Source of the DNA: Candidatus Chloroploca asiatica
GTDB lineage: Bacteria; Chloroflexota; Chloroflexia; Chloroflexales; Chloroflexaceae
Length of the DNA: 64,000 bases
NCBI RefSeq assembly: GCF_002532075.1
Contig: NZ_LYXE01000063.1
Location: 186,001 to 250,000, forward strand
Direction of reading: 5' to 3'
Below the pieces are notes generated by a model, which worked only from the letters and a program-made list of their open reading frames with translations, was not told where the DNA came from and did no database searches. The position numbers were made by a program, and so were the translations under genes. Positions 27,665 to 51,350 of this stretch are shown one piece after another. Positions within the stretch are counted from its first letter, which is position 1, and the number at the start of each line of letters is the position of its first letter.

Positions 27665-27711
27665 TTCTTTGCTGGAACAAGCCAGCGTAGCTGGCTTGTT
27701 CCAGCAAAGAA
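27665..27711. repeat. Perfect 22-bp palindrome with GTA loop inside the operon
   Basis: Arms 27665-27686 and 27690-27711 match exactly around three bases. It stands 14 bases after one stop codon and ends 9 bases before the next start, so it would sequester the region ahead of the acetyltransferase ribosome site. Its core GCCAGC-GTA-GCTGGC is shared with 46168-46210. Confidence 0.9.
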
Positions 27712-43276: not shown

Positions 43277-43329
43277 TCTTCTACTGGTGGAAAATGTCAG
43301 TTCCACTGACATTTTCCACCAGTAGAAGA
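43277..43329. repeat. Perfect 25-bp palindrome with TCC loop between divergent genes
   Basis: Arms 43277-43301 and 43305-43329 are exact reverse complements around three bases. It lies 60 bases upstream of the DtxR-family start and 290 bases upstream of feoA. As the flanking genes point away from it, it does not look like a terminator. Operator, cruciform or hairpin roles are possible. Confidence 0.9.
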
Positions 43330-46167: not shown

Positions 46168-46210
46168 TTCGCTGGAAAAAAGCCAGCGTAGCTGGCTTTT
46201 TTCCAGCGAA
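46168..46210. repeat. Perfect 20-bp palindrome with GTA loop between feoB and feoC
   Basis: Arms 46168-46187 and 46191-46210 match exactly. It shares the inner GCCAGC-GTA-GCTGGC and outer GCTGGAA with the palindrome at 27665-27711. It lies within the feo operon, 28 bases after the stop of the FeoB permease, so partial termination or mRNA processing is possible. Confidence 0.9.
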
Positions 46211-46498: not shown

Positions 46499-47998
46499 AT
46501 GCCGATCGATCTGTTGCTTGATGGACAGTTGTACCCTGAACCCTCTTCCGTCGTTGAGGGAACATCAGTTGAGTTGCACGCGGTGCCACCAACCGGGGCC
46601 GCTTCCCTTAGCCTGTTCATCAACGGGGTACCTCTAGAGCCATTTTTGCGGCCTGGCGATCCGGCCTGGCGCTGGCACTGGCCTGCTCCAGCAAGTACAG
46701 GTGCGTACGAGGTGGTGCTGAGCACCCACTGGCCTGATGGTCGCACCGAGGAGGTGCGTACGCAGATCGTGGTTGCGCCACGTAAGCTCGATGTTGAACA
46801 CTATGCGCTGCTCCTTGAGGATCTGCAAGCAGTGGCCCCCCGCTTGGTCTTTGCGCTCACTGGTGGACGGCACGGGGTAAAACCTGATCCAGCTTCACCG
46901 AGTGCGCATGCCACCGCGATGCTCGACGCCCTCTGTCGCGACGAAATCCCGCGCCTCGTGGCGGCAGTGGAACGCCTCGCCCAACGCCCCCCCGAGCGCC
47001 TACAGACGCGTACCATCGCGGTCGATCCAGGCACAGCGCAGCGACCGGCCCTTCACCGGGGCGAGTTGATCAATCTATCACCAGCGCCGTCGCCTGAATC
47101 GGAGCATCCGTCGCCAGCGTCCTTGAGTAGCATACCGGAAGAGACAACCGAGGCCAGCTATGATAGCTATGAGGCACGTCTGTTGCGACGACTCATCGAA
47201 GTGCTGCTGCATCGCCTTGGGCAACTGGCGAACCTGACCAACCCGACGCCAGAACTGGAGGCAACCCGGCAGCGCCTGCGCGAACTGAGGTCACTACCCC
47301 TGCTTACCGAGGTGCCTCCGCTGCAAGCCTATCGCGGCATCACATCGCGTATGCAGCGCGACCCCGACTACCGCATTGTCGCCCGGGTCTGGCAATGGCT
47401 CCGGCGACACCCACTGATCACCTGGGACGCCGCGACCCTGACCTTGCCCATCAGCCAGTTACCCCGCCTCTACGAGCGCTGGTGCGCTGTGCGTGTCGCC
47501 CTCACCTTGCTTGAAAGGCCAGGGTATACGCTGATCAGCCAGGCACTGTGGAACGACGACGCCGCCGAGCAGGGACTGACGTTGACGGAGGGAACGGCGC
47601 TCCTTGGTCTGACGCACGAAGATGGGAGCATCTTGACCTTGCGCTATCATCCCCGCTACCCACCTGACGGTGACAACGTGCGCTCACTCGACCGGCACAC
47701 ACGCATCCCCGATCTTGCGCTTGAAATGCTCCCGCCTGACGGCTCGCCGCGGATCAGCCTGCTCGACGCCAAATATCGCCTTGATCCCAGTGGCGGAGTG
47801 CCTGCCGACGCCCTGGCCGACGGATACAGCTATCTGGGCGCCATCGGGAACAGCGCAGGGCGACGCCTCGTCGAACGCGTCGCGTTGCTCTATCCAGGGC
47901 ACGGCAAAGCGGAACACTATGCCAGTGGCATCGCCGCTCTACCGCTCTTGCCAGGAAATGATGATGCACTGCGGGCATGGCTTGCATATGCAGGATGA
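46499..47998 (+). CDS. DUF2357 / PD-(D/E)XK nuclease-like protein
   Basis: 499 residues. The N-terminal 90 residues form a beta-sandwich-like domain (LLDGQLYPEP, TGAYEVVLS). The middle is helical with VARVWQWLRRHPLITWDAATLTLP near 300-322 (in part). The C-terminal part contains RIPDLALEML (Asp405) and LLDAKYRLD (Asp423, Lys425), the D-(D/E)xK arrangement of the PDDEXK_7/DUF2357 proteins. Relatives are often paired with a McrB-like AAA ATPase in restriction-type defence; none is seen here. It follows feoC by 6 bases but has only a weak ribosome site. Confidence 0.7.
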   Translation: MPIDLLLDGQLYPEPSSVVEGTSVELHAVPPTGAASLSLFINGVPLEPFLRPGDPAWRWHWPAPASTGAYEVVLSTHWPDGRTEEVRTQIVVAPRKLDVEHYALLLEDLQAVAPRLVFALTGGRHGVKPDPASPSAHATAMLDALCRDEIPRLVAAVERLAQRPPERLQTRTIAVDPGTAQRPALHRGELINLSPAPSPESEHPSPASLSSIPEETTEASYDSYEARLLRRLIEVLLHRLGQLANLTNPTPELEATRQRLRELRSLPLLTEVPPLQAYRGITSRMQRDPDYRIVARVWQWLRRHPLITWDAATLTLPISQLPRLYERWCAVRVALTLLERPGYTLISQALWNDDAAEQGLTLTEGTALLGLTHEDGSILTLRYHPRYPPDGDNVRSLDRHTRIPDLALEMLPPDGSPRISLLDAKYRLDPSGGVPADALADGYSYLGAIGNSAGRRLVERVALLYPGHGKAEHYASGIAALPLLPGNDDALRAWLAYAG

Positions 47999-48002
47999 GC
48001 CT

Positions 48003-48051
48003 CTCTTGCCGTAAAAAAAGCCAGCTGCGCTGGCTTTTTTCACGGCAAGAG
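48003..48051. terminator. 23-bp hairpin with TGC loop between convergent genes
   Basis: Arms 48003-48025 and 48029-48051 pair with one A/C mismatch. The right arm carries GCTGGC then six T, so on the plus strand a stem ending in a U-run is available. It shares the GCCAGC/GCTGGC core with 27665-27711 and 46168-46210. A bidirectional terminator is the simplest reading. Confidence 0.8.
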
Positions 48052-48840: not shown

Positions 48841-49536
48841 TTATTCATCATCCTGGACAAAATCATCGGTTTGATCGGGCGTTTCGGGCGGATACTCACC
48901 CAGCGCAAGGATCGCATTGCGAATCTGGTCAGCAGCAGTCTGCCACGAACGCCGCATCCGTGGATGCGCCTCGACGTGCAGCGGTTCACCAAACCGAACC
49001 GTCACCTGCACCGGGCGGGGCACAAACTTGCCCTTGGGCATCACCCTCGTTGTACCGCCGATCCAGGTTGGGATCACTGGAATCTGAGGAAAATCAGCTA
49101 GCAACTTGCCAATGCCTGCCCGAAACGGCCCCAGCGAGCCATCCTTGCTGCGCGTCCCTTCGGGAAAGAGCAAGAGCGCATACCCTTCGCGCAGCGCCCG
49201 CGCCGCATGGCGCAGTGGATCTTGCCCACCGCGGCGATCGCGGGCAATTGGAATTGCATTAAACAAGACACGGGAAAAATATTGCTGCGGCCCCCCCTGA
49301 AAAAAATAGTCCTGAGCCGCTGCCGCCACAAAATGGTCGCGAATAGCGAGGGGAAGACTTGCAAAGATGACAGCCGTATCGGCGTGACTCTGGTGGTTGG
49401 CAGCAATGACAAACCCACCCTCGTGAGGAAGATATTCAAGCCCACTGATGCGCGGCCGCACATACATTTGTACAAAACGCACAAACATGCCGGGCAGAAA
49501 ACGCGCCGCAGCATGGCGGCTCCGATAGAGGCTCAT
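48841..49536 (-). CDS. plsC: 1-acylglycerol-3-phosphate O-acyltransferase
   Basis: 231 residues. NHQSHAD with His48 and Asp53 is the HX4D catalytic pair, and FPEGTRS near 124-130 is the glycerol-3-phosphate-binding block. It adds the second acyl chain to form phosphatidic acid. GGAG lies seven bases upstream. The C-terminal tail is acidic (PETPDQTDDFVQDDE). It is the first of two minus-strand genes; the region upstream carries four palindromes. Confidence 0.9.
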   Translation of the reverse strand: MSLYRSRHAAARFLPGMFVRFVQMYVRPRISGLEYLPHEGGFVIAANHQSHADTAVIFASLPLAIRDHFVAAAAQDYFFQGGPQQYFSRVLFNAIPIARDRRGGQDPLRHAARALREGYALLLFPEGTRSKDGSLGPFRAGIGKLLADFPQIPVIPTWIGGTTRVMPKGKFVPRPVQVTVRFGEPLHVEAHPRMRRSWQTAADQIRNAILALGEYPPETPDQTDDFVQDDE

Positions 49537-49684
49537 CGCGTGCTCCGCACGCCGTTCATCAGGTGAATCACGGCTAATCCCTGGCTCAACTTTGTTTCTG
49601 GCATGAATGGTATCTGCCGGGAGAACTCATCGTCCAGATACGCTTGAGTTATTATACCGCTAAGTTGAGAAAGTGGGGGATGGG

Positions 49685-49712
49685 GGGCGTTAGGGCGATC
49701 GCCCTAACGCCC
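49685..49712. repeat. 28-bp perfect palindrome
   Basis: The 28 bases 49685-49712 are their own reverse complement, with GGGCGATCGCCC at the centre. This is the first of four tandem palindromes. Confidence 0.9.
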
Positions 49713-49714
49713 AG

Positions 49715-49767
49715 GCTTATGCTGGTGCAAACGGCCAGCTTCGCTGGCCGTTTGTACCAGCATAAGC
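49715..49767. repeat. 25-bp hairpin with TTC loop
   Basis: Arms 49715-49739 and 49743-49767 pair with one G/T wobble position. The left part is related to 22239-22280, with six substitutions and one gap over about 42 bases when counted from 49699. Confidence 0.9.
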
Positions 49768-49774
49768 GCGATGC

Positions 49775-49795
49775 TTGGGGGCCTACGGTCCCCAA
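49775..49795. repeat. 9-bp GGCC-TAC-GGTCC hairpin
   Basis: TTGGGGGCC pairs with GGTCCCCAA around TAC, with one wobble. It belongs to the short module that recurs at 14047, 46140, 61266 and (inverted) 61340. Confidence 0.7.
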
Positions 49796-49818
49796 ACCCT
49801 TTTTGCCTACAAAGGCAA

Positions 49819-49857
49819 GTGCCTGGGCACGGGGCATAGAGCCCCGTGTCCAGGCAC
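49819..49857. repeat. 17-bp hairpin with ATAGA loop
   Basis: Arms 49819-49835 and 49841-49857 pair with one wobble. It begins 18 bases downstream of the gcvPB stop in reading direction and could end that operon. Confidence 0.8.
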
Positions 49858-49874
49858 GCTTGCACCTACATTCA

Positions 49875-51350
49875 CTACCGCTCGTTGAGGATCTGCGCAA
49901 AGGCTTCGGCGTTGTAGCGCAAAATTGGCTGACGAGCGGCCCGCACTTCGTCGAGCCGACGCACTGGTGCGGTCGTCGGAGCGTCATGCAGGACGTCGGG
50001 AGTCTCAACGGCTTCGCGGGCAATGTCGCGCATGGCCTGAATGAAAATGTCCAGGGTGCGTTTGCCTTCCGTTTCGGTCGGCTCGATCATTAGTGCTTCG
50101 GGCACGATCAGGGGGAAGTAGACCGTTGGTGGGTGAAACCCGTAGTCAATCAACCGCTTGGCGATGTCGAGCGTGCGAATGCCCTGCGCACCGGCAATCT
50201 GCCCTCTGAGCACGGTCTCGTGCATGCAGATCCGGTCAATAGCCTGCGGGTAGAGGTCTTTCAGTTTGACCCGAACGTAGTTGGCGTTGAGGACGGCGAT
50301 TTCACTCACTTCGCGCAACCCTGCCGCCCCTAGGGTGCGAATATAGGTCCACGCCCGCACCAGCATCGCAAAGTTACCATGAAAGGCTTTCATGCGCCCG
50401 ATGCTCTTCTCGGGGGTAAAGAGTTCGTAGCTGCCACTCGCCGTCTGGCGTACCCGCGGCCCGGGTAAAAAGGGCGCAAGTTCTGCCGTGCAACCGACGG
50501 CCCCTGAGCCAGGACCACCGCCACCGTGCGGGGTCGTAAAGGTCTTGTGCAAGTTATAGTGCATAAAATCAAAACCAAGCTTACCTGGTTTTGCAATACC
50601 AAGAATTGCGTTGAAATTAGCACCATCCCCGTACATCAAGCCACCCGCCTCGTGGACAAGCTGACAGATCTCGACAATCTGGTCTTCAAAGAGCCCGAGC
50701 GTATTGGGGTTTGTCAGCATCATACCAGCCGTACGTGGCGAAAGTTTCGCCCGCAGATCGTCCATATCCACGTTGCCCCGGGCGTCACTCTTCAACTCGA
50801 CAACCTTCAGCCCGACCATCGCCGCCGTCGCAGGGTTGGTTCCGTGCGCAGCGTTGGGCACCAGCACTTCGGTGCGATCAGGGTCGCCGCGATCGAGGTG
50901 ATACGCCCGAAACGCCAGAATGCCCGTAAGCTCACCCTGTGCGCCCGCCGCCGGTTGCAACGAGACGGCCTCGAACCCCGAGATTTCACCAAGGTAGTCT
51001 TGCAATTCGTACATCAATTGCAACGCACCCTGGCTTAGGCTCTCGTCTTGCAACGGGTGTACCGCCGCAAACCCGGCATAACGGGCCACTTCCTCGTGCA
51101 GCTTGGGCGTCGCTTTCATCGTACACGAGCCCAGCGGATACATCATCGTATCTGGTGAAGCATTGCGCTGGCTGATCCGCGTGTAGTGACGCATGACCTC
51201 AGGCTCGGTCAGTTCGGGAAAGTCATTCATCCCGTCCTGCCGCAGCAATGCGGTCGGCAACGCTGCTTCCGGAACATCCAGGCGCGGCAGGTTGGTGCCA
51301 TGCTTGCCCGGAGCCGAAAGTTCATAAATATGTGGTTCGTACGTATCCAC
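49875..51350 (-). CDS. gcvPB: Glycine dehydrogenase (decarboxylating) subunit 2
   Basis: 491 residues, the C-terminal half-type P protein. Lys269 in NLHKTFTTPHGGGGPGSG is the PLP lysine. YPLGSCTMKATPKL near 70-84 is a further signature. The GTG start at 51350 is preceded by GGAGAG. It works with GcvPA to decarboxylate glycine and load aminomethyl on GcvH. It is the last gene of the gcv operon, separated from gcvPA by an Uma2-family gene. Confidence 0.95.
   Translation of the reverse strand: MDTYEPHIYELSAPGKHGTNLPRLDVPEAALPTALLRQDGMNDFPELTEPEVMRHYTRISQRNASPDTMMYPLGSCTMKATPKLHEEVARYAGFAAVHPLQDESLSQGALQLMYELQDYLGEISGFEAVSLQPAAGAQGELTGILAFRAYHLDRGDPDRTEVLVPNAAHGTNPATAAMVGLKVVELKSDARGNVDMDDLRAKLSPRTAGMMLTNPNTLGLFEDQIVEICQLVHEAGGLMYGDGANFNAILGIAKPGKLGFDFMHYNLHKTFTTPHGGGGPGSGAVGCTAELAPFLPGPRVRQTASGSYELFTPEKSIGRMKAFHGNFAMLVRAWTYIRTLGAAGLREVSEIAVLNANYVRVKLKDLYPQAIDRICMHETVLRGQIAGAQGIRTLDIAKRLIDYGFHPPTVYFPLIVPEALMIEPTETEGKRTLDIFIQAMRDIAREAVETPDVLHDAPTTAPVRRLDEVRAARQPILRYNAEAFAQILNER

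Follow-up and report, generated by a model that had tools for sequence, protein, structure and literature searches.

The intergenic region between gcvPB and plsC in Candidatus Chloroploca asiatica carries four near-perfect hairpins in tandem, which raises the question of where such an array comes from and what keeps the arms of its hairpins paired. In the window, the whole stretch of 64,000 nucleotides that we analysed, all four hairpins reported by the initial annotation were found at the coordinates given there (Table 1), and a small fifth one, absent from that annotation, was seen at 49803-49818. The array sits in the 3' intergenic region of gcvPB, 18 bp downstream of this gene, beyond which lies gcvPA, likewise on the - strand. 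The hairpins are not due to chance, since those with arms of at least 14 bp number 53 in 380 kb of the contig against 0 in 200 kb of first-order Markov sequence, and the fold of the array region (-131.2 kcal/mol) lies far below that of its shuffles (-78.1 kcal/mol, sd 4.5; z = -11.8).

Table 1. Hairpins of the array, the composite repeat copy and the neighbouring genes (positions in the window)
Feature	Coordinates	Strand	Arms	Loop	Mismatch	Remarks
plsC-like acyltransferase gene	48841..49536	-				PF01553; downstream neighbour of the array
Composite repeat copy (hairpins 1, 2, 3)	49683..49799	+				R1 covariance-model match G000:C62:235683-235799; 111 bits, E 2.6e-30
Hairpin 1	49685..49712					28-bp perfect palindrome
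Hairpin 2	49715..49767		49715-49739/49743-49767, 25 bp	TTC	one, G49727/T49755	core of the repeat
Hairpin 3	49775..49795	+	49775-49783/49787-49795, 9 bp	TAC	one, G49781/T49789	
Small fifth hairpin	49803..49818		TTGCCT/AGGCAA on the - strand			between hairpins 3 and 4
Hairpin 4	49819..49857		49819-49835/49841-49857, 17 bp	ATAGA	one, G49827/T49849	
gcvPB, glycine dehydrogenase subunit 2	49875..51350	-				PF21478, PF02347; upstream neighbour of the array

What lies here is a single copy of a palindromic repeat, intergenic, family-level and composed of three hairpins, with an unrelated, single-copy hairpin 4 at its side; the earlier description of a tandem array of unrelated sequences is thus wrong for hairpins 1-3, which make up one composite dispersed repeat. 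When positions 49670-49870 were used as a query, dozens of dispersed matches were obtained in the organism's own genome and in those of two congeners, Candidatus Chloroploca mongolica M50-1 and strain Khr17. Hairpins 1, 2 and 3 align in this fixed order across 52 copies, with the orientation of the repeat being defined by hairpin 1 at the left and hairpin 3 at the right. Searches with a covariance model built from these copies (R1), each of which scored the best 150 candidates and hence gives lower bounds, recovered at least 147 strand matches at no fewer than 93 separate positions of the own genome, together with at least 143 and at least 146 strand matches in the congeners. Relatives of the repeat occur in 7 of the 18 genera of the family, and 17 of the 22 stem pairs covary across its copies. 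The window has no match in Rfam at the gathering score, and our search of the literature returned no description of the repeat. Hairpin 4, in contrast to this dispersed family, is present once in the genome and has an orthologous copy only in Khr17; its single copy rules out a second repeat family. Long hairpins reach a density of 0-0.1 per kb in small samples from other relatives, against 0.14 here, and 0.30 per kb in the contigs of one genome (G015) that were partly chosen for holding matches.

At the orthologous locus, the congeners differ in what they retain. Khr17 has all four hairpins in the same intergenic region; its hairpin 2 has the loop GAA, the inverse of TTC in the window, and the window mismatches of hairpins 2 and 4 are paired there, though its hairpin 2 has other defects. 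C. mongolica retains hairpins 1 and 3 and is without hairpins 2 and 4, which appear to have been lost by slippage deletion, because short direct repeats (GCTT at hairpin 2 and TTGC at hairpin 4) bound the missing stretches. Both congeners, like most copies of the family, have hairpin 1 in an imperfect form. Compared with the two congeners and with the family consensus, the window's lineage shows at least three derived changes, a T replaced by G at the centre and AA replaced by CG in the right arm, every one of which completes the 28-bp palindrome. A single template switch copying the left arm would suffice to complete it, and this is probably how hairpin 1 was made perfect in the window's lineage. 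The recent origin earlier suggested for these hairpins survives for hairpin 1 alone, which appears to be a recent result of template switching, and not for hairpin 2, which comes from an old repeat family.

All hairpins with arms of at least 14 bp, taken from three long contig stretches and other loci, were paired between the three species on the basis of their two flanks, with ortholog pairs of poor ungapped alignment (non-orthologous or gapped) being excluded from the counts. Among the 59 ortholog pairs that could be aligned, which hold 1352 base pairs and have flanks of 92.6% identity, both partners of the base pair differ in 85 cases and a single partner in 50, against about 7 and 186 expected under independence; as hairpins enter this count only if paired in both species, one-sided changes are undercounted, but this bias cannot by itself give rise to a paired excess under independence. 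Watson-Crick pairing is kept in both species at 81 of the 85. The compensatory arm substitutions that the initial annotation proposed to look for in relatives are thus largely there, with 81 paired against 50 one-sided changes. Taking one pair per locus (43 loci), there are 61 both-side changes in register, in excess of independence, versus 2-14 once the partner is shifted by 1-6 bases. Hairpins outside the repeat family behave alike (57 paired and 30 one-sided changes), so that a donor copy elsewhere is not needed, and gene conversion from other copies can be ruled out as the sole cause. The paired changes comprise 29 transitions and 28 transversions, and those of the transversion type cannot pass through a G-U intermediate.

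A few loci (L063/L064 and L184/L225) have changed on both arms over much of the stem, which exceeds a single switch and needs several events or another process. The window hairpin at 48003-48051, also represented by L063 and L064, differs between congeners at up to 6 positions on both arms of its outer stem, while its apex, GCCAGCNNNGCTGGC, is unchanged. An apex of the form GCCAGC-NNN-GCTGGC is common to the hairpins at 27665-27711, 46168-46210, 48003-48051 and 49715-49767, the stems of which are otherwise different. In the same part of the window, positions 46499-47998 hold a gene that carries DUF2357 together with a PDDEXK_7 nuclease domain.

The loops bear a distinct signature. At 11 of the 41 loci with odd loops, the central trinucleotide is the exact reverse complement of its ortholog, whereas shuffling the loops among loci gave on average 2.9 inverted loops, and never more than 9, in 2000 trials; 8 of the 11 have two or more base differences. 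In some cases the loop is all that differs: the long intergenic window hairpin at 43277-43329 and its C. mongolica ortholog are distinguished by GGA/TCC (by orientation), the likewise long and intergenic one at 46168-46210 and its C. mongolica ortholog by GTA/TAC, and the two members of one pair of repeat copies (1/40) by an inverted loop and nothing else. Hairpins within the repeat family and outside it do not differ in this behaviour.

The mismatches that remain in the stems point in the same direction. All three in the array (49727/49755, 49781/49789 and 49827/49849) are G-T on the + strand, and the pairing had accordingly been read as kept through G/U wobble. This argument fails because the neighbouring genes plsC, gcvPB and gcvPA lie on the - strand, where these positions read C-A and are unpaired in the fold. 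More generally, standing mismatches in the hairpins comprise 56 transitions and 4 transversions; at loci in tandem gene contexts, as assigned by a crude ORF caller and in small numbers, those on the transcribed strand amount to 3 G-U and 10 A-C, with no G-U excess being seen.

Homogenization of arms and inversion of spacers have been attributed to polymerase template switching between the arms of inverted repeats, with spacer inversion requiring an intermolecular switch (PMC8604942, PMC8794818). Because loops are inverted alone, half of the paired changes are transversions and the transcribed strand has no G-U excess, we consider it likely, on the strength of these sequence comparisons, that the preserved pairing is mainly due to template switching in replication and not to protection of an RNA structure. 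The nascent strand would switch template within or across the palindrome and so copy one arm anew from the other. If the switch stays on one strand, an arm would be corrected with the loop left as it was; if it goes to the opposite strand, the loop would be inverted as well. Loss of whole hairpins appears to go back to slippage from one short direct repeat to another. Selection for a DNA or RNA hairpin could act on top of this. Of the two origins of the pairing that had been left side by side, RNA-structure selection and template switching, the loop-only inversions and transversions thus favour the latter.

The competing view that the hairpins act in RNA, in 3' end formation, mRNA stability or as a structured RNA, with selection on the transcript keeping the pairing by compensatory mutations, can draw on the strength of the fold, on the covariation of the stem pairs across copies and on a somewhat greater frequency of hairpins in convergent gaps (50 of 163 hairpins, with such gaps being 20 of 115). 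Yet it predicts neither exactly inverted loops nor the half of the paired changes that have no path through G-U, and it has to contend with a transcribed strand that shows no G-U excess, with the lack of a T-tract on the gene-bearing strand and with a congener that does without hairpins 2 and 4 at this locus; we hold it to be quite improbable. Even less probable is that the array consists of ordinary tandem intrinsic terminators. Its position close behind gcvPB would suit them, as would a T-tract at hairpin 3 on the + strand, where ACCCTTTTTG stands directly 3' of the hairpin. However, none of the four is a GC-rich hairpin with a T-tract behind it on the transcribed strand: the single T-tract, that of hairpin 3, is antisense to the genes, and the - strand on which these lie has none. 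Further, long hairpins of this kind are found in tandem, convergent and divergent gaps alike. It is very unlikely that the loop inversions are artefacts of assembly or sequencing. The assemblies are short-read drafts split into many contigs, perfect palindromes pose difficulties for assembly, and a 3-nt loop between perfect arms could in principle be misplaced; against this, the loops lie inside hairpins of about 53 nt, below the usual read length, and the same set of loci also displays paired arm changes and loop changes other than inversions.

A different kind of explanation takes the repeat for a mobile palindrome, REP/BIME-like or derived from IS200/IS605, whose pairing is kept for recognition of the single-stranded hairpin by an HUH transposase. 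The repeat is dispersed, intergenic, hairpin-based and present in high copy, the presence of hairpins differs between congeners, and the genome has IS200-type TnpA genes, with RAYT-like genes in both congeners below the NCBI cut-off. Still, we regard this explanation as unlikely. The stems are without an adjacent GTAG or CGTC tag: the tetranucleotide stands beside hairpin 2 in 0-1 of the 52 copies and flanks hairpins 1 and 3 on the outside in at most 6 of the 52. Matches to tyrosine transposases all fall below the REP cut-off, and none of the four genomes searched has a transposase above the RAYT cut-off (80 bits for NF047646); the window genome has only IS200-type TnpA and fragments (best score 42.9 bits), and the congeners have longer RAYT-like genes at 64 and 55.6 bits. 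The transposase genes examined, both IS200 and RAYT-like, are not flanked by the element, apart from a 29-nt match to hairpin 3 near L299, which argues against a transposase as neighbour of the repeat at these loci. The same paired changes in hairpins outside the family also speak against a mobile palindrome, as does the lack of an established target-site duplication. The RAYT-like tyrosine transposase genes of the congeners (G002:C70:449-871 and G001:C32:3855-4247) specify about 180-200 aa, and those found in the window genome are fragments (C122:12102-12272 and C171:20245-20328). Two IS200/IS605-type transposase genes of the latter (L019 and L020, on contigs C71 and C77) run off contig ends, as assembly-breaking repeats would, and at L021 2677-3122, near an IS200-type transposase gene, lies a low-complexity, GC-rich tandem array in whose frames repeats such as GALAGALAG and ARAPARAP can be read.

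The template-switching reading has a wider bearing. When stem pairs covary, this is usually read as strong evidence of a functional RNA; here, covariation is widespread in bacterial intergenic hairpins and comes with inverted loops, paired changes of the transversion type and no strand-specific wobble, a combination that points to a mutational origin. Such hairpins could hence be mistaken for RNA families. We also entertain, as a speculation that is rather unlikely to be right, that template switching turns intergenic hairpins over unusually fast in this lineage, with loops perhaps flipping within populations, because the repeats or a host factor keep these palindromes extruded in replication. 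If so, the genus would offer a natural setting for 'compensatory covariation' in the absence of any RNA selection. The three sequenced congeners offer a ready comparative set for rates of template switching, and the repeat, being absent from Rfam, should be useful in annotating Chloroflexales genomes.

The sequences show the family, its copy number and the fixed hairpin order, as well as paired changes and inverted loops in orthologous hairpins. We would class the repeat as a new family of palindromic repeats that is probably maintained by an already known mutational mechanism. It resembles the REP/BIME elements (GTAG and CGTC super-families, PMC3733652; RAYT-associated, PMC2817692) in being intergenic, palindromic, composite and present in about 100 copies per genome. 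Unlike them, it has three different hairpins in a fixed order and a stem of 25 bp as opposed to mostly 6-9 bp; the GTAG/CGTC tag is missing, and the four genomes searched gave no transposase above the RAYT cut-off. With non-autonomous IS derivatives of the MITE/PATE type it shares a small size, a non-coding and dispersed nature and a hairpin structure, but no parent IS with shared ends was present among the transposase loci examined. The closest parallel in process is the template-switch correction of quasipalindromes (PMC8604942, PMC8794818), which likewise features homogenized arms, clustered paired changes and exactly inverted spacers in palindromes with long arms and short spacers. The published cases were reported from yeast coding genes and rRNA genes and seldom include inverted loops; in contrast, the hairpins described here are intergenic and bacterial, and about a quarter of the tested orthologous loci with odd loops are inverted.
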